Shown: positions 19,738 to 45,938 of the stretch, in pieces
Numbering within the stretch: position 1 is the stretch's first letter
Layout of the letters: every line of letters begins with the position of its first letter
Position numbers and translations under genes: made by a program
The notes under the pieces: model-generated
The model's input: only the letters and a program-made list of their open reading frames with translations
Databases searched by the model: none
What the model was told of the DNA's origin: nothing
Origin: Armatimonadota bacterium
GTDB lineage: Bacteria; Armatimonadota; Hebobacteria; GCA-020354555; CP070648
Length of the DNA: 47,308 nt
Reading direction: 5' to 3'
NCBI GenBank assembly: GCA_035527535.1
Contig: DATLAK010000099.1
Span: forward strand, 1 to 47,308

Positions 19738-19791
19738 GTGGCTAGGGCCGACGAGTCGGCCCGCCACGGCGGCCCAACGGGCCTAGCCGCC
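19738..19791 (+). repeat. Two-hairpin structured repeat, copy A
   Basis: Stem-loop I is GTGGC, TAGG, inner palindrome GCCGACGAGTCGGC, CC, GCCAC. Stem-loop II is GGCGG, inner palindrome CCCAACGGG, CCTAG, CCGCC. Both outer stems pair perfectly (5 bp each). Confidence 0.75.
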
Positions 19792-27040: not shown

Positions 27041-29542
27041 ATGGCAGTCCAAGACGTCGTGAGCCAACACCAACGCCCGCCACGAACGTGGCCCGCCCCA
27101 CCGGCGGAGCCGGCGCCGGCCTTTGACTGGCGCCTGCTGCTGTACAATATCGCTCTGACTCTGCTCGCACCCCTGCTGGCGGCGTACCTGCTGTGGCGAA
27201 TGGCCGGCCGCGGCAAGTCGCACGGCGGCTGGGGCGAGCGGCTGGGGCGCGTTCCCCCGGCGGCGCGCTACCGGCCGGGAGGCCCGCGGGTATGGATTCA
27301 TGCCGTCTCCGCCGGTGAGGTCGCGGGCGCCGCGTGCTTGCTCGACGCCATCAAGCGCGTCCTTCCCGAGGCCCAGGTGCTGGTCTCGACCACCACCGCC
27401 ACGGGACGGCCCATGGCCGCCAGGAGCTGTGCCCGCGCCGATGCCATCTTCCATTTTCCCCTCGACCTCCTGCCCGCCGTGGAGCGCGCCCTGCGCCTGA
27501 CGCGCCCGGACCTGTGCCTGCTGGTCGAAGGCGAGCTGTGGCCGAATTTCCTATCCGCCGCCCGCAGGCACGGCATACCTACGATGGTGGTCAACGGGCG
27601 GGTGTCGGATCGCACCACCCGGCGGCTGCAGGTGCTGGGACCGCTGTTCAGGTGGGTGGTCGGTCGGGTTGACCGGTTCTGCATGCAGTCGCGAAGGGAT
27701 GTCCAGCGCATCGTCGCGCTGGGCGCTCAGCCCGCGCGCGTCGCCCAGGTCGGCAACGTCAAGTTCGACCAGGCAGGCGCGCGGGTCGCGCCGGGGGAAC
27801 GCGAGCGGCTGGCGCGCGAACTGGGGGTCGCGGGGGCGCAGACGGTGGTCATTGCCGCCTCCACCCATCCTGGGGAGGAAAGGATCGCGCTCGATGCCTT
27901 CAACGCGGTGCGCCAGGTGGATGCCGCCGCGCGGCTCATCATCGCCCCCCGGCACATCGGGCGCGCCCGCGAGGTCGAGCAGGTGGTGGCGCAAGCGGGG
28001 TTACGCTCCCGGCGCCGCACCCAGGGGCCGCCCGGCGCCGCCGAAGGACCCAACACGGTCATCATCCTCGACACCATCGGCGAGCTCGAACGAGTCTACT
28101 CAGTCGCCGCCGCGGCCTTCATCGGCGGCAGCTTCGCGCCCATCGGCGGGCACAACCTTCTCCAGGCGACGGCGCAAGGGATCCCCTGCGTCTTCGGCCC
28201 GCACATGCACAAGTCCCGCGATATCGCGGGTGTGATTACCGAGGCCGGGTTGGGGGTTCAAGTGCGCAGCCCGCAAGCGCTGGGCATGACCCTGGCCTCG
28301 CTGATCCGGGATCGCAAGCGCCTGGCGGCGATCCGGCGCAGCAGCGGCGAGGTGCTGGCGCGGCACCGCGGCGCCGCCGACCGCAGCGCGCTTGCCGCCG
28401 CCGAGATGCTCGGCTACCGGCCGCCGGGGACGCAGTCCACGCCCGGCGCCGGGCTGCGGGCTTTCGTCGTCGGGGCGCTGTCCGGGGCCGATCGCAGGCC
28501 GGCGGCGCGGGCGCTGGTTGGCATGCTGGCGCCCGCCTCCGCGCTATACTGGATCGGCCTCAAGCTGAGTCGGCTGGCGTATGCTCTGGGCCTGGCGCGC
28601 GTGACGCGCCTGCCCGCCCGGGTCATCAGCGTCGGCAACCTGACCGCCGGCGGCACCGGCAAGACCTCGGCGGCGGCGCTGCTGGCCGCGGACGCCGTCG
28701 GCGCCGGCAAGCGTACCGCGGTCCTCAGCCGCGGCTACGGGCGGCGGTGCGGGGGAGGCAAGGCCGAGCTCGTGTCCGACGGTAGGCAGGTCATGAGTGA
28801 CCACCTGAGCGGCGGCGACGAGCCATTGCTGCTGGCCCGCGAGGCGGCGGGCGCGGCGGTGCTCGTGGGCAAGGATCGGCGGCAAACCGGACGGCGAGCG
28901 GTGGAGACCCTGGGGGCGGAGGTGCTTATCCTCGACGACGGCTTCCAGTACTGGCGGCTGGCCAAGGATCGCGAGATCGTCTTGATTGACGCGCTGTGTC
29001 CGTTCGGCAATGGCTTGCTGGTGCCCGCCGGCATCCTGCGCGAGCCGCTGAGCCACCTGCGCCGCGCAAGCGCGGTGTGGATCACCCACACGGATCTCGC
29101 GGCGCCGCAGCGGGTGGCGGAGCTACGCCGCCGCGTGGGGCGCGTCTTTCGCGGGCCTATCCGCGAGACCGTCCATCGTCCGCTTGACTTGCGCGCCCTG
29201 GAGGGCGAGGAAGCGATGGACCTGGGGCGGCTGCCGGAGCAACCGGTGGCTGCCCTCTCGGGCATCGGCAACCCGCGGGCCTTCGAGCTGACCCTGGAGC
29301 GACTGGGTGCGCGCGTACTGCCCCTGCGCTTCCCGGATCACTACCGCTACCGCGGCGCGGACTGCGCGGCGATTGAGCGCTTCGCGCGGCGCCGGGGCGC
29401 GCGTATCGTGACCACGGCGAAGGACGCGGTGCGGCTGTGGCCGGGAGCATTCACGCAACCAGTGTGGGTGCTGCGCGTGGAGATGGCGGCGGCGCAGGGC
29501 GGCCTCGGGCTCGAGTGGGAGGGGGAACCGGAGCAGCCGTGA
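27041..29542 (+). CDS. waaA-lpxK: Kdo transferase-lipid A 4'-kinase fusion
   Basis: 833-aa bifunctional protein. Residues ~30-430 are a WaaA/KdtA GT30 Kdo transferase: a membrane anchor (LLYNIALTLLAPLLAAYLLW), GGWGERLGRVP, VWIHAVSAGEV, LLVEGELWPNF and SFAPIGGHNLLQATAQGIP. Residues ~470-833 are LpxK: a helical anchor, RVISVGNLTAGGTGKTSAA with the Walker A loop (~530-543), AVLSRGYGRR, ILDDGFQYW and FPDHYRY. There is no stop or frameshift between them. Both act on lipid IVA at the inner face of the inner membrane: LpxK phosphorylates, then WaaA adds Kdo. The first ~28 residues are an extra proline-rich leader. The stop overlaps the next gene by GTGA. Confidence 0.93.
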   Translation: MAVQDVVSQHQRPPRTWPAPPAEPAPAFDWRLLLYNIALTLLAPLLAAYLLWRMAGRGKSHGGWGERLGRVPPAARYRPGGPRVWIHAVSAGEVAGAACLLDAIKRVLPEAQVLVSTTTATGRPMAARSCARADAIFHFPLDLLPAVERALRLTRPDLCLLVEGELWPNFLSAARRHGIPTMVVNGRVSDRTTRRLQVLGPLFRWVVGRVDRFCMQSRRDVQRIVALGAQPARVAQVGNVKFDQAGARVAPGERERLARELGVAGAQTVVIAASTHPGEERIALDAFNAVRQVDAAARLIIAPRHIGRAREVEQVVAQAGLRSRRRTQGPPGAAEGPNTVIILDTIGELERVYSVAAAAFIGGSFAPIGGHNLLQATAQGIPCVFGPHMHKSRDIAGVITEAGLGVQVRSPQALGMTLASLIRDRKRLAAIRRSSGEVLARHRGAADRSALAAAEMLGYRPPGTQSTPGAGLRAFVVGALSGADRRPAARALVGMLAPASALYWIGLKLSRLAYALGLARVTRLPARVISVGNLTAGGTGKTSAAALLAADAVGAGKRTAVLSRGYGRRCGGGKAELVSDGRQVMSDHLSGGDEPLLLAREAAGAAVLVGKDRRQTGRRAVETLGAEVLILDDGFQYWRLAKDREIVLIDALCPFGNGLLVPAGILREPLSHLRRASAVWITHTDLAAPQRVAELRRRVGRVFRGPIRETVHRPLDLRALEGEEAMDLGRLPEQPVAALSGIGNPRAFELTLERLGARVLPLRFPDHYRYRGADCAAIERFARRRGARIVTTAKDAVRLWPGAFTQPVWVLRVEMAAAQGGLGLEWEGEPEQP

Positions 29543-38142: not shown

Positions 38143-39366
38143 CTAACGCATCGAGCGGGCGGTTTTCAGCATCGCCTCGCGGCCGAGGGCGCGCGATTGC
38201 AGGGACACCGCGGTTTCGCCGCGGGCCCACGAGAGGACCGCTTGCGCGCCCGCGCTGGTCAGCGTCCCAGTCGCGGCGCCGATTGCGACTCGCGCTCCCA
38301 ACCCGGGGGCCGGAGCCGGCCCGGCGGTGCTGCGCGCTCCCGCCTGGGTGATTATCAGCAGCGGCTTGCCGGCCCCCGCGTACAGCAGCCGCGCCTCCAC
38401 GGGCTTGCCGTTACGCGTCAGCGCGCTGAGCGTTAGCAGCCCGTAGCCGGGCGGCAGCCACTGCGGCGCCAGCAGGACGAACGGCATGACTGCGCGCGCC
38501 TGGGCCAGTGTCATATCCTCCACATCGTAGAGCGGCAGGCGCACTCGCTTGAGCGTCACCTGCAGGGGAGTCGTGCTCCCGGCGCGCGCCACCGTTAGCT
38601 TCACCGATGTGCCCGGCGCCCCGCGCAGCAGCTCCATCATCGCCGGCAGGTGGAGCAGCGATACGTCGCGGCCGTCTGCGGCGACGATGGTGTCACCCGG
38701 CCGCAGTCCCGCGCGCGCCGCCGGCATGCCGGGCTCGACCGACAAGATGGTTGTCGGCATGCCGGGCGTGAGGGCGAGGCCTACTCCACCGCCGGGGAGG
38801 TCGGCGGCGACGGAGCGTCCCCACCCCCGCCGGCGCGCCGCCGAGGGAGCACCCATGCGCGCGCCGGGGGCCGCCTGCACCGCCGACCCCGCGAGCTTGA
38901 GGAGCTCCTCCACGCGCAGCTCGGCTGTCAGCCCGAGCTGCGTATCGCCTTGGATCCACTCGACCGTGACCCGTCGCGGCCCGGGGCCCTGCGCTGCCCA
39001 TCCCGCACGGTCGCCGAACCTGAGGGGAAACGAGGGTTGGGTGAGCGGCTGACCAAGATTTGGCATCTGCCACAGGGTGATGCCGTTGGCATAGGTGACG
39101 TAGACGCGGTCGGGCACATAGACCCCCTCGATCTGCTGTGCGGGCGCAAACAGGATACGCGGGGTTCCGGCGTCCGCCGGCGGAGCCGTGGGAAGGCAGA
39201 TGACGAAAGAGGCGCGTTCCTGCGCCTCGGTCAACGACATGACTCCCGCTCCCGGCGCCGAGACGACGGCGGGAACGCGCGATTCGCGAGCGGCAATCGC
39301 CGGCGCCAGCGCGCACGCGCCCAGCGCTACGCCCAGGCCCCTGGCGATCAGCGATGCCCGGGTCAT
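38143..39366 (-). CDS. Secreted PDZ protein with duplicated flanking domain
   Basis: 407-aa exported protein. A signal peptide (LIARGLGVALGACALAPAIA-A) comes first. A PDZ domain at ~192-280 (ILSVEPGMPAARAGLRPGDT, IVAADGRDVSLL) is flanked by two related units. The unit at 43-160 has SLTEAQERASFVICLPT, YANGITLWQMP and VEWIQGDTQLGLTAEL. The unit at 285-407 has TLAQARAVMPFVLLAPQWLP, PPGYGL, LLYAGAGKPLLIITQAG and LSWARGETAVSLQSRAL. The LPxGY...Y..G...L.I.Q pattern recalls DUF4367 and RseB/MucB C-terminal domains. ATG 39366 overlaps the anti-sigma stop by 4 bases. It is third in the sigma operon, the place of MucB/RseB; a regulatory role is inference. Confidence 0.72.
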   Translation of the reverse strand: MTRASLIARGLGVALGACALAPAIAARESRVPAVVSAPGAGVMSLTEAQERASFVICLPTAPPADAGTPRILFAPAQQIEGVYVPDRVYVTYANGITLWQMPNLGQPLTQPSFPLRFGDRAGWAAQGPGPRRVTVEWIQGDTQLGLTAELRVEELLKLAGSAVQAAPGARMGAPSAARRRGWGRSVAADLPGGGVGLALTPGMPTTILSVEPGMPAARAGLRPGDTIVAADGRDVSLLHLPAMMELLRGAPGTSVKLTVARAGSTTPLQVTLKRVRLPLYDVEDMTLAQARAVMPFVLLAPQWLPPGYGLLTLSALTRNGKPVEARLLYAGAGKPLLIITQAGARSTAGPAPAPGLGARVAIGAATGTLTSAGAQAVLSWARGETAVSLQSRALGREAMLKTARSMR

Positions 39367-40838
39367 GGATGGGACCGTTTCGCGCGACCCGGAGTAGCAG
39401 GAGGTTGGGGCACCGGCCATATCGTCAGCGTCCCCTCTCCGCCGCGCAGCGCGTAACCCATCCGCTCCAGCGCCTTCGCTATCGTCTTCTGTGCGGGGCG
39501 CGCGCCGAGGCCGGCCCGGCGGCCGGTCGGGAAGCCCTCCGGCGCCAGGACGTACACGCCTTGGCCCGATGCCAGACCTTGCAAAACCTCGTCCCACGTG
39601 GCCGAAGCGGTCGGTTTCCCTTTGCTCACTCTGGTCATCGGCCCGGGGGGGCCGGAGGGCCCGGCAGCACCGGCAGGCGCCGCTTCCGTCCGCTCCGCGG
39701 AGACGGGCGCGAACACGTAGTAAGCCTGCGGCTGCACCTGGGCGCCGCGTATGACTAGCTGCTGCGTTGCCATGTCGGGGCCCGGCGCCGCCACCTGCAC
39801 GTCCACGTTGTTGACTCTGCTCTTGTCGAGTCGGCCCTGCCACAGCACGACCTCGGGCGATCGCGCATCGGCACTGCGCAGCGACACCTGGGCGTCCTCC
39901 ACGTCGTCGTTGGGCTTCAACTGCAGCGTCAGGTTCCGGTTGGACAACTGCGTGTGACTGGCCTGGGCCGTCACCGCAATCGAGGTAGCGGCCCGCTCGC
40001 CGAACCGCAACGCATCGTCGAGATCGGCGGCAGGCGCACGCTTGCCCTCGCCCGGGGTAGCGACGGCTGCGCGCGCGGCGCGCAGCGACGGGGTCGCCGG
40101 CTCCGCCGCGACCGATGGTGCCGCGGAGGAGGGAACGTGCTCCTCCTGCTCTGCGGCCGTCCTGCCTTTGGTGACCGCGCTCTCGGCGCCAGCCCCGGAC
40201 GCGCGCGGGGACTCCGTCCCCATGGGCGGCGGCCCTGTAAGAGTCAAGGGCGACACGGCCGGCGCTTCAGCCTTCGTTGGCGCGTACCCCGCGGACGGGC
40301 GCGATGGTTCGCGCCCATTGGCGCCGCGCGGTTGGGCCGCGGTCGCCGCCGGCACGCCGGGGTGGACCGGTGGCGCCGGGCGCTCTGCGGACGGCGCGGC
40401 CGCACCAGTCATGGGAGCGGGAGTCCGCAGGGGTGGTTGACGCAGGGCGTCACCCGAGTCGTCGCGCAGCCGGGCGGGCGCCTGTGCGGCGGTTCGGCTG
40501 CGGAATGACGGTTCTTCACGTGTCGTCAGGTGCATGACACCGAAGGCAGCGACCGCCAGCAGGGCCGCGGCGGCTACCGGCACTGCCCAGCGCACCATCA
40601 CCGCACGCGGCCCGTCGCCGCGCGCCTGCAGGCGCGCCCGCACCGCGCCCACCAGGGCCGGCGGCGCAGGCTCCGCTTGCAGTTCGCGCAGGGACCGCAG
40701 GACCGCCTCCAACGCGGCGAACTCCTCCCGGCAGCGGACGCAGGCCCCCAGGTGCGCCTCCAGCTCGCGCCGCTCGCCCGCTCCCAGGTCGCCGTCGCGG
40801 TAGCGGGAGAACCGGTCTATGACATCACGGCATCGCAT
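39363..40838 (-). CDS. Membrane zinc-finger anti-sigma factor
   Basis: 491-aa single-pass protein. Residues 1-40 are a zf-HC2/ZAS anti-sigma domain (Cys3, His29, Cys33, Cys36: HLGACVRC). The transmembrane helix is ~81-104 (VPVAAAALLAVAAFGV). A long periplasmic part follows: a ~180-residue low-complexity Pro/Ala linker, a beta-rich domain (~280-390, NRNLTLQLKPNDDVEDAQVS), and a small C-terminal alpha/beta unit (QKTIAKALERMGYALRGGEG). The gene follows the sigma factor by 21 bases. In this family the ZAS domain holds the sigma factor until regulated proteolysis frees it. The periplasmic part is much longer than RseA's and is probably the sensor. Confidence 0.85.
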   Translation of the reverse strand: MRCRDVIDRFSRYRDGDLGAGERRELEAHLGACVRCREEFAALEAVLRSLRELQAEPAPPALVGAVRARLQARGDGPRAVMVRWAVPVAAAALLAVAAFGVMHLTTREEPSFRSRTAAQAPARLRDDSGDALRQPPLRTPAPMTGAAAPSAERPAPPVHPGVPAATAAQPRGANGREPSRPSAGYAPTKAEAPAVSPLTLTGPPPMGTESPRASGAGAESAVTKGRTAAEQEEHVPSSAAPSVAAEPATPSLRAARAAVATPGEGKRAPAADLDDALRFGERAATSIAVTAQASHTQLSNRNLTLQLKPNDDVEDAQVSLRSADARSPEVVLWQGRLDKSRVNNVDVQVAAPGPDMATQQLVIRGAQVQPQAYYVFAPVSAERTEAAPAGAAGPSGPPGPMTRVSKGKPTASATWDEVLQGLASGQGVYVLAPEGFPTGRRAGLGARPAQKTIAKALERMGYALRGGEGTLTIWPVPQPPATPGRAKRSHP

Positions 40839-40859
40839 GGCATACCCTACTGTTTGACC

Positions 40860-41474
40860 TCAGTCTCCGCGCAGAAGTTCCAGGTGCGGCTGGAGGGCCT
40901 CCTTGAGCGCCAGGCGAGCCCGGTTCAGCCGTGACTTCACGGTGCCGACGTTGGCGCCGGTAATCGTCGCAATCTCCTCGTAGGAGCACCCTTGCAGCTC
41001 GTACAGCACGAGGGGCAGCCGATGGTGCACGGGCAGCGACGCGATCGCCCGGTGCACGACCTCGTGGCGCTCCCGCCTCTGCACGCGCTCCTCCACGCCG
41101 GGAGCGGGGTCCGGGGCATCCGCCGGGATCGCCTCGTCAGTGATGAGCGAGCTGGCGGGCGGTGGCCGCCGCTGGCGGCGCTTGATCTCGTCGAGGCAGA
41201 CGTTTGTCGTCACCCGGTACAACCAGGTCGAGAACGATGACCCGCGGCGAAACCGCTTGATCGCGGCGAAGGCGCGCACCAGTGCTTCCTGGGCGATGTC
41301 GCACGCTTCGTCGCGATCGCCGATCATGCGGTAGGCGAGGTTGTACACCCACTGGCCGTGCCGCTCCACCAAGCGATCGAAGGCCAGCGTATCTCCCCGC
41401 TGACATCGCTCGATCAGCACGTTCTCGGCGGCGAGCGCGTCTTCCGTCACCGCTCCTGGGGGCGCGAGTCGCAT
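40860..41474 (-). CDS. ECF (RpoE-like) RNA polymerase sigma factor
   Basis: 204-aa group IV sigma factor. Region 2 covers LIERCQRGDTLAFDRLVERH, NLAYRMIGDRDEACDIAQEA and FSTWLYRVTTNVCLDEIKR. Region 4 covers IASLPVHHRLPLVLYELQG, YEEIATITGANVGTVKSRLN and RARLALKEAL. The start is taken as ATG 41474; an upstream frame to 41561 lies before the promoter -10 and cannot be transcribed from it. It is first in an operon with anti-sigma and PDZ genes, opposite an HtrA gene, pointing to cell-envelope stress. No auto-regulatory ECF-type promoter (GAAC..TC) was identified. Confidence 0.93.
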   Translation of the reverse strand: MRLAPPGAVTEDALAAENVLIERCQRGDTLAFDRLVERHGQWVYNLAYRMIGDRDEACDIAQEALVRAFAAIKRFRRGSSFSTWLYRVTTNVCLDEIKRRQRRPPPASSLITDEAIPADAPDPAPGVEERVQRRERHEVVHRAIASLPVHHRLPLVLYELQGCSYEEIATITGANVGTVKSRLNRARLALKEALQPHLELLRGD

Positions 41475-41484
41475 GGCTTCCAGG

Positions 41485-41513
41485 ATTATATCGCGGTCAG
41501 TGGCACTGGGCAA
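41485..41513 (-). promoter_or_regulatory. sigma70-like promoter of ECF sigma operon
   Basis: On the minus strand TTGCCC (41513-41508), 17 bases, TATAAT (41490-41485). The -10 ends 10 bases before ATG 41474, so the leader would be only a few bases. Confidence 0.6.
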
Positions 41514-41583
41514 GGGCCGAGACGAGCGGGGGTGTGACCTCGGAGTCTTGGCATGCCGCACAAATCACTCCTCTCCCTTCCAG

Positions 41584-41655
41584 AGCCTGCCCTGAGTGGC
41601 TAGGTCGCGCGCGACCGCCACCCCGGCCCAGCGGGCTTAGGGGCCTGTCGAAGGG
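41584..41655 (+). repeat. 25-base repeat split by structured repeat
   Basis: AGCCTGCCCTGAG (41584-41596) and CGAAGGG (41649-41655) match the two ends of the repeat at 61-85. Here they are separated by structured-repeat copy B. Confidence 0.6.
41596..41645 (+). repeat. Two-hairpin structured repeat, copy B
   Basis: GTGGCTAGG, inner palindrome TCGCGCGCGA, CCGCCAC, CCCGG, inner palindrome CCCAGCGGG, CTTAG, GGGGCC. The outer stem of the second hairpin is CCCC/GGGG. Confidence 0.7.
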
Positions 41656-41702
41656 GAGAGGACGAAGGTGAGGGTAAACAGTCCCGCCGTCCACCCTCAC
41701 CC

Positions 41703-41756
41703 GGCGGCTAAGTCCCGATTCTCGGGACCGCCGTGGCGGCCTTCAGGCCTAGCCAC
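41703..41756 (-). repeat. Two-hairpin structured repeat, copy C
   Basis: On the minus strand: GTGGCTAGG, inner palindrome CCTGAAGG, CCGCCAC, GGCGG, inner palindrome TCCCGAGAATCGGGA, CTTAG, CCGCC. Confidence 0.72.
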
Positions 41757-41774
41757 TCGCCGCAGGCTCGCCGA

Positions 41775-41795
41775 CCTCTCCCTTCCAGGGAGAGG
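41775..41795. repeat. Perfect 9-bp hairpin
   Basis: CCTCTCCCT, loop TCC, AGGGAGAGG. The left arm also occurs at ~41569-41577 with its partner (GGGGAGAGG) displaced to ~41653-41661 by the nested insert. Confidence 0.6.
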
Positions 41796-41980
41796 GGTGC
41801 GCACCGTCTGCGGCCGCACCAAAGAAAGAAGGTCACACCCGCGAGCGGGGGTGCGGTTCGCAAACCACCGGTGGTCACCACGCGCCGCGCCGATGATGCC
41901 GGTCGCTGCTGCGGGCTACGGTGTGACGAACAGCAACGTGGGTGTAGCAACACCCGCACAGCGCTCGCCCGCCGCCGCCC

Positions 41981-42009
41981 TTGACGCGCCGCGGGAGGCA
42001 TGGGACAAT
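41981..42009 (+). promoter_or_regulatory. sigma70-like promoter for first htrA
   Basis: TTGACG (41981-41986), 17 bases, GACAAT (42004-42009), 30 bases before the start codon. Confidence 0.6.
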
Positions 42010-42039
42010 ACGGCAGCCAACGCAAAGAGGTGAGCGGGA

Positions 42040-43170
42040 ATGAGCGACGGAACGGTGTTCAGGCTGCGTTGGGCGCCCCTGGTGGGAGCGGCCCTGGCGG
42101 GGTGCGTGATCGGCGCCGCGTTAACGGCGCTGGTGACGGCGCCAGGGGGCGCCGGCTTGGCCGCTCCGGCCTATGCGCGCGCGATCGCCCCGGAGTCACA
42201 GAGTGCGATCGTCGAGGCGATAAAGAAGGTTGGCCCCGCGGTCGTCAACATCAACACCATCGTGCAAGTCCCATCCGCGCCGGTGCCGGAGATCTTTCGG
42301 CCGTTCTTCGAGGGGCCGTTTCCGCGTCAGGGCCAGGCCTCGGGCGTCATCATCGATCAGAAGGGATTGGTGCTGACGAACAACCACGTCCTCGAGGGTG
42401 CGACGGCGGTCAAGGTCACTCTGGCCGACGGGCGCACCTACGACGCGACCGTCGTCGGCACCGACCCCTTGAGCGATATCGGCGTCGTGCGCATAGCGGA
42501 CGGCGGCTTGCCCTTCGCCGAGCTGGGCGCCTCCGAGGAGAAGCCCATCGGCTCGTGGATCATCGCCATCGGCAACCCCTACGGCTACGAGAACACGGTG
42601 ACGGTGGGCGTGCTGAGCGCGCGCGATCGGAGCCTGCGCGCCCCCAACGGGGTGGTACTTGACCATTTGCTGCAGACCGATGCGGCCATCAACCCCGGCA
42701 ACAGCGGCGGTGCGCTGGTGGACATCGAGGGCAAAGTCATCGGCGTCCCGACGGCGATCATTCCCTACGCGCAGGGCATCGGCTTCGCCATCTCCGCCGA
42801 GAGCGCGCGCAAGGTAGCCACGCAGCTGATCGCGACCGGGCGCGCCATCCACCCCTGGCTGGGCGTGGGGGTGGTGCCGATCACGGACGAAATCCGACAG
42901 CAGCTCAAGCTGCCGGATCGCGGCGGCGTCCTCGTCAGCGGCGTCGAACCGGACAGCCCGGCCGCGCAGGCCGGGATCCAGCCCCGGGATGTGATCGTGC
43001 GCGCGGGAGAGCGCGCGGTGACCGACCTGCAGGTGGTTGCCGACGTGGTGCGGGACAGCACAGTGGGGCAGGAGCTTCCGCTGACCATACTTCGCAATGG
43101 CGCCCAGATCGTCGTCACCGTGACCGTCGGCGAGCGGCCCGCGCCAAAACCGGGCCCCGAACAGCCATAG
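42040..43170 (+). CDS. HtrA/DegP-family serine protease, one PDZ
   Basis: 376-aa envelope protease. An N-terminal hydrophobic segment (~11-32) acts as signal anchor. The trypsin-fold domain has the triad His116 (LTNNHVLEG), Asp146 (LSDIGVV) and Ser222 (NPGNSGGALVD). One PDZ follows at ~275-365 (GVEPDSPAAQAGIQPRDVIV). One PDZ plus a membrane anchor is the DegS arrangement, the protease that cleaves RseA in E. coli. The gene is divergent from the sigma/anti-sigma operon, so a site-1-protease role is an attractive inference. ATG 42040 has GAGGTGAGCGGGA upstream. Confidence 0.92.
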   Translation: MSDGTVFRLRWAPLVGAALAGCVIGAALTALVTAPGGAGLAAPAYARAIAPESQSAIVEAIKKVGPAVVNINTIVQVPSAPVPEIFRPFFEGPFPRQGQASGVIIDQKGLVLTNNHVLEGATAVKVTLADGRTYDATVVGTDPLSDIGVVRIADGGLPFAELGASEEKPIGSWIIAIGNPYGYENTVTVGVLSARDRSLRAPNGVVLDHLLQTDAAINPGNSGGALVDIEGKVIGVPTAIIPYAQGIGFAISAESARKVATQLIATGRAIHPWLGVGVVPITDEIRQQLKLPDRGGVLVSGVEPDSPAAQAGIQPRDVIVRAGERAVTDLQVVADVVRDSTVGQELPLTILRNGAQIVVTVTVGERPAPKPGPEQP

Positions 43171-43517
43171 ACACCCGGGAGGCGATGTCGGCTGAGCCTG
43201 CTCTCAGGAGGGCGAGCCGCGCGACGGCTCCGCTGAGCCTGCGCCCCCGAACCCGGTTCGTGCGCTGTGGCTTTTCCGTCAGGCAGCAGCCCTCTCATCG
43301 GCCGCAGTGAACCACCGGTCGCCGGTTTCCCCGCCCGCGCTTTCTGCGCCCGCGCGTCTCGATCGCGCCCAGCGCGCCGAAGCCCAGCGGTTCCCGCTTG
43401 GCGCTGCCGTGAAGGCTCACAACGGAACCAACGGCCGGAGACATTCGTCACACAAGACGGGAATGATGCTGCCGCGGTGGTGCCCGTGCGTCACTGGCGG
43501 GATATGGCGCGGCGTGC
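43171..43517. other. Intergenic region, small repeats
   Basis: No gene is supported. GCTGAGCCTGC occurs twice (~43191 and ~43232) around a hairpin GAGCCG/CGGCTC (43214-43230), which may end the htrA transcript. Confidence 0.4.
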
Positions 43518-43523
43518 TATAAT
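43518..43523 (+). promoter_or_regulatory. Extended -10 element for GT2 gene
   Basis: TATAAT preceded by TGC (TGnTATAAT), as in the lpxC promoter. No good -35 at 16-18 bases (TGGCGG at best), consistent with an extended -10 promoter. AGGAGG lies at 43544-43549. Confidence 0.55.
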
Positions 43524-43552
43524 CCCGCACAATAGCGACGCACAGGAGGCCA

Positions 43553-44254
43553 GTGATCAAGGTAGCAGCCATCATTCCCGCCTACAACGAGGAGCGCCGC
43601 ATCGGGGCGGTGCTGTCCGTGGTGGAGCGAGCGGGCCTGTTTGACGACATCGTGGTAGTGGACGACGGGTCCACCGACCACACGCTGGAAAAGCTGCCCA
43701 CGAATAACGGCGTGCGCGCCCTGCGTCTGGCTGAGAACGTCGGCAAGGGTGGGGCGATGTGGGCAGGGGTTCACGGTACGGACGCTGACATCGCGCTGTT
43801 CCTGGATGCGGATCTCGTGGGCCTGCAGCGCGAACACCTGCGCTCGCTGGTCGAGCCGGTGGCCGCGGGCGAGGCCGACATGTGTGTCGGGGTGTTCCGC
43901 CACGGGCGCTACTGGACCGATCTCGCCCAAAGGCTGGTGCCCTACATCTCGGGGCAACGCGCGCTGCGCCGCGAGACATTCTTGAGCGTGCCGCGGGTGC
44001 GCTTCGCGCGCTCCGGCGTCGAGGTCGCGCTCACCTATCATGCGCGGGTGCAGGGCTGGCGCGTTACAAGCGTTCCGCTGGTGGGAATAACGCATGTGAT
44101 GAAGGAGGAGAAGATGGGCGCGCTGCGCGGGCTGTGGGCACGCACAGGCATGTACTGGGAGATCGCCAGCTACATCTCCAGCGAGCGGTGCAGACGCAGC
44201 GCGAGCGGCGCGCTGCGCTCCCTGCGCAGGTTGCTCGGAGAGCAGCCCGAGTAG
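43553..44254 (+). CDS. GT2 family glycosyltransferase (DPM/GpgS-like)
   Basis: 233-aa GT-A enzyme. VAAIIPAYNEERRIGAVLSV, IVVVDDGSTDHT, NVGKGGAMWAG and ALFLDADLVGL (DAD metal motif) are present. The short form without a membrane domain resembles polyprenyl-phosphate or glucosyl-phosphoglycerate type transferases. The GTG start sits only three bases after AGGAGG, which is tight. It lies between two htrA genes, and no functional link is evident. Confidence 0.85.
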   Translation: MIKVAAIIPAYNEERRIGAVLSVVERAGLFDDIVVVDDGSTDHTLEKLPTNNGVRALRLAENVGKGGAMWAGVHGTDADIALFLDADLVGLQREHLRSLVEPVAAGEADMCVGVFRHGRYWTDLAQRLVPYISGQRALRRETFLSVPRVRFARSGVEVALTYHARVQGWRVTSVPLVGITHVMKEEKMGALRGLWARTGMYWEIASYISSERCRRSASGALRSLRRLLGEQPE

Positions 44255-44330
44255 CCATTCGCTGCCGGCCGCGGCTGCACGGCGCCGGCGGCGCGAGGCG
44301 CCCGCGACCGCCGCCATCATCCCCATGCGC

Positions 44331-44383
44331 CCCTAGGCGGCGAAGCCGCCGGGGTGGCGGGCCGATGGGTCGGCCCTAGCCAC
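44331..44383 (-). repeat. Two-hairpin structured repeat, copy D
   Basis: On the minus strand: GTGGCTAGG, inner palindrome GCCGACCCATCGGC, CCGCCAC, CCCGG, inner palindrome CGGCTTCGCCG, CCTAG, GG. It lies 52 bases upstream of the second htrA. Confidence 0.72.
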
Positions 44384-44435
44384 AACGATCCGATTCACGA
44401 TTGCAGGCCATGAGAGCAGGAGGAGGTTGTTGGGA

Positions 44436-45938
44436 ATGCGCAACCGCAGATACGCCGTAACCATTTCGATCGCGTGGCTCGTCGCGCTCTTGATCGTGCT
44501 GGCCGCCGCGGCGGGAGTGGCCTATCGCTACCACGGGCTCGTGGGCAGCGCCGCGGCCGCCACGCTGGAGCCGCCGAAGGAGCTGACGACGCTGCAGCAG
44601 GGCTTCATCGCCTTGGCCGAGCGCGCGAAGCCGTCGGTGGTCAACATCAGCATCGAGCAGAAGGCACAACCGCCATCGGGCGAGCAGTCAGTCCCGCCCG
44701 GAATGGAGGAACTGTTCAAGTTCTTTCGGCGTCAGTTCGGCGACCAGTTCGATTTTCGCACCGAGCCGCCGTCGGCCCAGCCGCGCAAGAGTCTGGGCTC
44801 GGGCGTCATCATTGATCCGCGCGGCTACATCCTCACCAGCGCCCATGTCGTGCGCGACGCGGATCGCGTGACGGTGACGCTGGGCGACGACAAGGAGCGC
44901 AAGGCGACGATCGTGGCCAGCGACCCCCAGACCGACCTGGCGGTGATCAAGATCGAGAACGAAGCACGATTGGTCGCGGCGCCGCTTGGCGACTCGGACC
45001 GCGAGCGCGTCGGCTCCTGGGTCATGGCCATCGGCAGCCCGCTGGGGCTGGAGCAGACGGTCACCGTCGGCGTCATCAGCGCCAAGAAACGCTCCTTCGA
45101 GAATCCCAACGTCAGTGAGCGCCGCTTTCGCGACATGATCCAGACCGACGCGGTCATCAACCCCGGCAACAGCGGAGGCCCGCTGCTCAATCTCAAGGGC
45201 GAGGTCATCGGCATCAACACTATGATCGTCAGCGGCACCGGCTTCAGCATCGGCTTAGGCTTCGCCATCCCCATCAACGGCGCCACCAGGCGGGTGATCG
45301 AGACCCTCAAGTCGGGGGGAACGCCGACGCGCGGGCTGCTGGGGGTGCACGTGCGGGCGCTGGATGAGGCGTTGGCATCGAACTACGGCGTGGATAAGGG
45401 CGCCTACGTCAATGACGTCGTCGCTGGCAGCCCGGCCGAGCAAGCCGGGATCAAGGCGGAAGACATCATCGTCCAGTTCGGCGACACCAAGATCGGCGAT
45501 GCGGACGAACTGGTGGGTGCGGTGGAGCAAACCAAGCCCGGCAGTCGGACCCCCGTGGTCGTCGTCCGCAGCGGCGCGCACAAGACCCTGCAGGTCACCG
45601 TCGGCCAGGTCCAGGGCCAGACCGCCGGCGCGACCGTCGCCTCCGCCACCGGCAAGCTGGGGGTCACGGTCAGCGACATCACGCCGGCGCTGCGCGAGCG
45701 CTATCGCCTGCAACGCGACCAGGGAGTGGTAGTCACCAAGGTTGATCCCAACGGTGACGGCGCTCGCGCCGGACTGGAGCCGGGCGACGTGATCGTGAAG
45801 ATCAACCACGCGGAGATTACGGCGGTGGCGGATTACGAGGGGGCGGTCGGCCGCCTCAAGGCGGGCGACGCGGTGGTGATCCGGATGGGGCGCGGCAGTG
45901 GCGTGTTCACCCTCACCATCCGCAGCCTCGGCGAGTAA
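44436..45938 (+). CDS. HtrA/DegP-family serine protease, two PDZ
   Basis: 500-aa exported protease-chaperone. An N-terminal signal anchor (ISIAWLVALLIVLAAAAGV) precedes an LA-loop insert (FKFFRRQFGDQFDF). The triad is His137 (LTSAHVVRD), Asp167 (QTDLAVIK) and Ser246 (NPGNSGGPLL). Two PDZ domains follow at ~300-390 and ~405-495 (VDPNGDGARAGLEPGDVIVK). The DegP/DegQ arrangement suggests an oligomeric periplasmic quality-control protease. ATG 44436 is chosen over TTG 44427 because AGGAGG (44421-44426) is then nine bases upstream. Confidence 0.94.
   Translation: MRNRRYAVTISIAWLVALLIVLAAAAGVAYRYHGLVGSAAAATLEPPKELTTLQQGFIALAERAKPSVVNISIEQKAQPPSGEQSVPPGMEELFKFFRRQFGDQFDFRTEPPSAQPRKSLGSGVIIDPRGYILTSAHVVRDADRVTVTLGDDKERKATIVASDPQTDLAVIKIENEARLVAAPLGDSDRERVGSWVMAIGSPLGLEQTVTVGVISAKKRSFENPNVSERRFRDMIQTDAVINPGNSGGPLLNLKGEVIGINTMIVSGTGFSIGLGFAIPINGATRRVIETLKSGGTPTRGLLGVHVRALDEALASNYGVDKGAYVNDVVAGSPAEQAGIKAEDIIVQFGDTKIGDADELVGAVEQTKPGSRTPVVVVRSGAHKTLQVTVGQVQGQTAGATVASATGKLGVTVSDITPALRERYRLQRDQGVVVTKVDPNGDGARAGLEPGDVIVKINHAEITAVADYEGAVGRLKAGDAVVIRMGRGSGVFTLTIRSLGE

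Follow-up and report, generated by a model that had tools for sequence, protein, structure and literature searches.

Among the small repeats of bacterial genomes, REP-like ones are some of the most frequent, and how they move is still poorly understood. REPINs are doublets of REP sequences that form hairpins, for which compensatory changes and a possible two-hairpin 'clover' fold have been described (Bertels and Rainey 2011, PMC3116915); their ends lie 71 or 110 bp apart (PMC3116915). Di Nocera et al. (2013, PMC3733652) described REP sequences with a GTAG or CGTC tag, variable in stem and loop, that form head-to-head pairs, in some cases separated by just 1-5 bp. Some REP families reside within other palindromes, and in that study Y1 genes did not correlate in any obvious way with REP families (PMC3733652). 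For the REP sequences of E. coli, the Y1 enzyme TnpA-REP needs a bulge in the stem and the 5' GTAG tag, and reads the stem above the bulge non-specifically (PMC8266576).

The window, by which we mean the whole stretch of 47,308 nucleotides that was analysed, contains four copies (A to D) of a double hairpin. Each unit consists of two abutting hairpins with a mirrored plan, S-TA-GG-H-CC-S' followed by S-GG-H-CY-TA-S', and a single rule fits all eight hairpins of the window: a foot stem S of 4 bp, an unopposed TA, and a tip H enclosed by GG and CC. The TA bulge is located on the 5' side in hairpin I and on the 3' side in hairpin II, and the gap between the two hairpins, as parsed in the four copies, is zero. 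The sequence-only reading, made beforehand, had the four copies in the right places and on the right strands, gave the tip lengths correctly (14, 10, 8 and 14 bases in hairpin I; 9, 9, 15 and 11 in hairpin II, all eight palindromic) and had recognised hairpin II as roughly an inverted hairpin I, which the common plan bears out. It had also described a covarying outer stem in hairpin II; the covariation stands, and the stem drawn as GGCGG/CCGCC for copies A and C is better described as CGGC/GCCG with a TA bulge, the longer version being this stem plus neighbouring bases. The foot stem is TGGC/GCCA, CGGC/GCCG, CCCC/GGGG or TCCC/GGGA, and therefore covaries, the conserved part of the unit being limited to (G)YGGCTAGG/CC-GCC. 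Units are about 42-61 bases long (commonly around 50), with single hairpins of about 21-31 bp, and are near-symmetrical, both strands reading nearly identically. Outside the stem a consensus tag is absent, with just a single-base preference for G (or A) in 78 units. In a scan of 0.68 Mb for GG/AG...CC frames in which the 4-bp stem and the bulge dinucleotide could be of any sequence, TAGG ranked first (64 matches), followed by GCGG (39); with a 5-bp stem, TA gave 25 matches versus 9 for the next dinucleotide.

Copy A (19739..19789, plus strand), the boundaries of which were taken from its empty site and are ambiguous by one base, reads TGGC-TA-GG-(GCCGACGAGTCGGC)-CC-GCCA in hairpin I (19739..19766, bulge on the 5' side) and CGGC-GG-(CCCAACGGG)-CC-TA-GCCG in hairpin II (19767..19789, the same plan inverted, bulge on the 3' side). 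As single-stranded DNA, the whole copy folds with z = -3.5 relative to shuffled sequences. Copy B (41597..41643, plus strand) has a CCCC/GGGG stem in hairpin II and its insertion point is GCCCTGA(G)^CCTGTCGAAGGG; on its own as single-stranded DNA this copy folds no better than its shuffles (z = -0.48). Copy C (41705..41755, minus strand) carries the tips CCTGAAGG and TCCCGAGAATCGGGA (fold z = -4.5). Copy D (44330..44382, minus strand), again with CCCC/GGGG in hairpin II (fold z = -4.4), is located 44 bases upstream of an open reading frame (44427-45938) for a trypsin/PDZ protease (Pfam). Copies B and C are carried by an intergenic composite repeat (41541..41828, strand unspecified), which also contains the palindrome CCTCTCCCTTCC(A)GGGAGAGG. 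In the surrounding region (38143-45938), genes for an ECF-like sigma factor and a zf-HC2 protein adjoin genes for PDZ/trypsin-like (HtrA-type) proteases, and copies B, C and D occupy intergenic stretches of this cluster. Elsewhere in the window (27041-29542), one open reading frame fuses a Kdo-transferase N domain (PF04413) with LpxK, the tetraacyldisaccharide 4'-kinase (PF02606), a fusion of lipid A genes.

A covariance model built from four units was run on all fetched loci, and the count for the whole draft genome (3.24 Mb) came to about 100 loci, made up of 84 covariance-model loci and 16 further exact ones. The exact pattern GTGGCTAGG-N(4-24)-CCGCCAC is matched 58 times in the genome, against once for the reversed control, many more times than chance would give. 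Within the same class (Hebobacteria), 11 of 14 sampled genomes are positive, with matches, listed per strand, numbering 27 in G005, 22 in G013, 21 in G007 and 18 in G011. The families that bear the element are f1, f3 and f4; the three genomes of family f2 have many Y1 genes and none has the element. Outside the class, none of the 137 sampled genomes of the phylum (151 genomes were searched altogether) has a match at E <= 1e-4, and the rest of the 39 contig matches outside the class are without hairpin tips and seem due to chance. The frame with its invariant TA bulge spans at least nine genera.

The tips were sampled without requiring that they be palindromes. Nearly all of the 54 distinct tips from the genome and its relatives are palindromic, with a mean of 3.43 outer pairs versus 0.64 when shuffled (maximum 1.15). 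The value is much the same in each subset, 3.42 versus 0.61 for the 33 distinct tips of the genome itself and 3.43 versus 0.69 for the 21 of its relatives, and not one tip is common to both. In an alignment of 126 distinct rows, 98.8% of the cells are paired, compared with 80.6% after shuffling and at most 49.6% with the register slid; double-sided changes number 388 versus 112 in shuffled rows, counts that are inflated by the near-symmetry of the unit, which puts both strands of many copies among the rows. The 64 parsed units represent 59 different hairpin combinations: one hairpin recurs with up to four partners, eight tips occur on both sides, and close copies differ mainly in the loop (for example TCAGCAATGCTGA and TCAGCAAAGCTGA). 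Hairpins are therefore exchanged as modules, and tips drift yet stay complementary. The exchangeable palindromic cores proposed from the four copies are thus found as a mosaicism of whole hairpins, and the two observations that would have spoken against the sequence-only reading, no more copies in the genome or tips losing complementarity, were looked for and not made.

When the flanks of 88 units were joined and compared with 0.88 Mb of the same genome and with small loci of it, spanning matches were obtained for 25, about 20 of them convincing; the 0.88-Mb sample was partly chosen around elements, and its densities are not genome averages. The joined flanks match sequences without the whole hairpin pair, so the two inverted hairpins act as one unit. 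The best empty site is that of the unit at C92:55903, of which the 35 + 35 joined bases match an uninterrupted place on contig C110 at 70 of 70 positions. The flanks of copy A join exactly as in uninterrupted copies on contigs C65, C176 and C191, and a repeat near-identical to the composite one, otherwise colinear, is present on contig C113 without copies B and C. At well-matched junctions nothing is duplicated and nothing is lost, the precise kind of insertion that characterises IS200/IS605-type elements. The insertion point is G^C (R^Y), with G at -1 in 59 of 78 units and C at +1 in 67 of 78, junction placement being ambiguous by one base. At one odd junction (query 62), a tandem repeat of 8 bases lies on one side and there is no flanking duplication. 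A reading of the unit as a CTAG-tagged hairpin, with its TGGC/GCCG flanks belonging to the target, was rejected, as those bases are absent from empty sites. Units also nest in other units, as at L157:1814, where the exact insertion point is the junction of hairpins I and II of another copy; such nesting explains the long arrays on contigs C149, C139, C191 and C70, and copies nest in other palindromic repeats as well. From these comparisons of occupied and empty sequence, it is clear that the element is mobile; footprints alone cannot tell insertion from precise excision, and both mean mobility. The earlier suggestion of a mobile non-autonomous element is thereby strongly supported.

RAYT genes, which had been suspected in the genome, are indeed present: two pass the NCBI RAYT model at the NCBIfam cut-off and others fall below it. 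In 36 stretches around about 30 Y1 loci of 11 genomes, searched with a two-frame scan and the covariance model, the double hairpin flanks no Y1 gene, and the only two elements in these stretches are some 2 kb (L243) and some 2.3 kb (L221, a weak match) away from the gene. A 2.4-kb neighbourhood in genome G001 was dropped as a case of RAYT linkage because the gene is bounded by different inverted repeats, AAATAGGTGACTGTCCC; with its repeats of this type, this Y1 gene (C1:4048639-4048968; L221 5000-5850) resembles the 'TIRtrons' of PMC3733652. In the genome itself, one RAYT gene (C149:26544-26939; L062 6360-7080) is bracketed by GTAG-tagged hairpins, GTAGGGGCCGATCTCCTGATCGGCCC, in a classical REPtron-like arrangement. 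Another (C61:21322-21726; L060 6900-7941) lies in a tandem field of GCGCGGGGTTCTCCTAACCCCGCG palindromes that reaches the end of the contig, surrounded by tandem GCGCGGGG...CCCCGCG repeats. A fragmentary RAYT-like gene (C189:1752-2210; L242) lies between GTAG hairpins, and a further one within the open frame splits the profile match. Hairpins directly preceded by GTAG number 38 in the 0.88 Mb (for example L149:1727, L145:15872 and L062:6369), and many of them share the foot GGGC/GCCC and differ in their palindromic cores; variable cores are thus not confined to the family with the TA bulge.

In the relatives, Y1 (RAYT) genes of G007 and G003 are flanked by the GGCAGGAG palindrome, and the GTAG-type palindrome GGGCAGGAGGCAAGCTCCTGCCC is found on both sides of Y1 genes on contigs C27 and C71 of G007 and C422 of G003. 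In several relatives the double hairpin sits precisely in the loop of the RAYT-flanking palindrome, after GCAAG. Counted with up to one mismatch, the host palindrome GGCAGGAGGCAAG^CTCCTGCC is empty versus occupied 46 to 2 times in G007, 18 to 3 in G010, 18 to 1 in G003, 13 to 2 in G011 and 11 to 9 in G013. The element therefore lives close to RAYT-driven repeats, which supports, and does not prove, mobilisation in trans by a Y1 enzyme. Inside a flanking palindrome are 17 of the relatives' 33 units; in the genome itself, a flanking stem of at least 5 bp is present in 14 of 78 units, where about seven are expected, and the hosts are diverse. A general three-way junction of an outer stem and two hairpins, suggested by the relatives, is thus not part of the unit, the outer stem being the host palindrome in a subset of cases. 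Against mobilisation by a Y1 enzyme, no Y1 gene was detected in the element-bearing genomes G008, G011 and G012, all estimated to be 74-86% complete and two of them fragmented (G012 is a single contig; G008 and G011 are incomplete), and family f2 has Y1 genes without the element.

We take the double hairpin to be a REPIN-like non-autonomous mobile element, most likely mobilised in trans, in single-stranded form, by a Y1 transposase of the RAYT type, and give this explanation a probability of roughly 0.58. The mobilising enzyme would read the frame of the hairpin, that is, the 4-bp foot stem, the TA bulge on the outer side and the GG/CC, while the tip beyond GG/CC would need only to fold and could drift or be swapped. 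Folded and single-stranded, the unit would be excised or copied and then inserted at G^C (R^Y), neither duplicating nor removing target bases, at sites including the loops of other palindromic repeats, which would expose single-stranded DNA. A Y1 HUH transposase of the RAYT type, acting in trans, is the likeliest candidate for the enzyme. A bolder version, in which the element is defined by shape, its tips are free, swappable, lineage-specific modules, and it lives in part as a second-order parasite inside the loops of repeats driven by RAYTs, would have only the foot, TA bulge and GG/CC read, and the unit moved, by an enzyme family new to REPs; this is tentative and rather doubtful.

Alternatively, the element might have no enzyme of its own and spread mainly within the loops of RAYT-linked GTAG-type palindromes, as a composite. 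Nine copies of G013 reside in the host GGCAGGAGGCAAG, most with the same two tips, as if one composite had been amplified, and about half of the relatives' units lie inside the palindrome that flanks Y1 genes. Such hitchhiking is unlikely as the main route, given how few units of the genome itself have a flanking stem and how diverse their hosts are, and since units enter one another as well as ordinary sequence, for which the unit itself must move. The attC sites of integrons resemble the double hairpin in design: some bases are extrahelical, the foot is short and conserved, the terminal structure is hypervariable but self-complementary, and recognition is by structure. Integration by a tyrosine recombinase in the same structure-specific manner, with recombination at G^C, would also leave no duplication. 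However, attC sites are not paired back to back and are linked to gene cassettes and IntI, neither of which is in evidence for the double hairpin; the unit carries no gene and is made of two abutting hairpins, each about 25 bases long, and from this comparison of general architecture we consider such an origin improbable. Terminal inverted repeats of nine bases, GYGGCTAGG/CCTAGCCRC, would suit a MITE moved by a DDE transposase, but no well-matched empty site reveals a target duplication. Insertion without duplication speaks against MITEs of the DDE type and agrees with IS200/IS605 chemistry, and of all the readings the MITE is the hardest to credit.

Two further explanations were considered. 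Correction of quasi-palindromes by template switching is a known mutational mechanism, and if it had perfected these palindromes, the hairpins need be neither selected nor recognised; that close copies differ mainly in the loop would agree with this. As a full account it is very improbable, leaving unexplained the dispersal, the TA frame kept across genera, the zero-gap pairing and the precise empty sites, but such repair may still help to keep the tips palindromic. An element transcribed into RNA and retained for its function, as a terminator, riboregulator or mRNA stabiliser, might be expected to have the strong structure and covariation seen here and to be mostly intergenic. Of 74 sampled loci, 61 (about 82%) are outside genes as called with a simple codon-usage script, in every flanking orientation; the 13 units inside called genes, a setting in which Rickettsia palindromic elements are read in frame, include those at L145:10439, L147:10401, L165:7748 and L236:10034. 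Against an RNA element, an Rfam search of the window gave no match, copies lie between divergent genes 13 times versus 2 between convergent ones, the two strands are near-identical and the footprints reveal movement. With no enrichment between convergent genes, a terminator or 3'-UTR element was rejected, and no tRNA-like gene was found in the window. The structured RNA proposed as one option in the sequence-only reading hence received no positive support, and we regard it as having very little chance of being right.

The family is an unusually clear natural experiment: the fixed and free parts of the hairpin are directly readable, insertions can be placed to the base, and a single genome has target repeats both occupied by the element and free of it. 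That tips change yet stay self-complementary suggests that the machinery may read a shape and a tiny bulge rather than a full sequence. The unit is also a small DNA substrate on which recognition by structure, whether by Y1 transposases or by other enzymes, could be tested, and it adds a little-studied phylum to the range of tagless, bulge-framed REP-like doublets.

The comparison with REPs and REPINs made from the four copies was apt in its main lines, except that the element has neither an unpaired GTAG/CGTC end tag nor a RAYT gene directly linked to it. Like a REPIN, the element is an inverted hairpin pair, intergenic and dispersed as one unit; unlike one, it has no spacer between conserved ends, no conserved 16-mer and no RAYT of its own, its tips are free beyond the bulge, and the physical association with a RAYT gene seen in REPINs and REPtrons was not observed. 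With tagged REPs it shares the short (20-40 bp), many-copy, mostly extragenic palindrome, the head-to-head arrangement, the variable stems and loops and the nesting, and differs in having a TA bulge in CTAGG...CC in place of an unpaired GTAG/CGTC end, a strict zero gap and a covarying foot. The E. coli REP also has a bulged stem, whereas here the bulge is an unopposed TA and there is no GTAG tag; the way in which its Y1 enzyme reads the bulge, and the upper stem non-specifically, fits the proposal that the frame is read and the tip is free (PMC8266576). Mitochondrial double-hairpin elements and GC clusters (for example PMC5910586, PMC4478555) are likewise small mobile double hairpins that spread between genes; they are organellar, with other frames and target rules and no demonstrated relation. 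Nesting and pairing are not new in themselves, as REP dimers 1-5 bp apart and REPs inside palindromes were already described (PMC3733652). What is new is the lack of an end tag, an invariant TA bulge between the stem parts, a strict zero gap and free, exchangeable palindromic tips, together with the resolution of insertion to a single base from empty hosts present in many copies.
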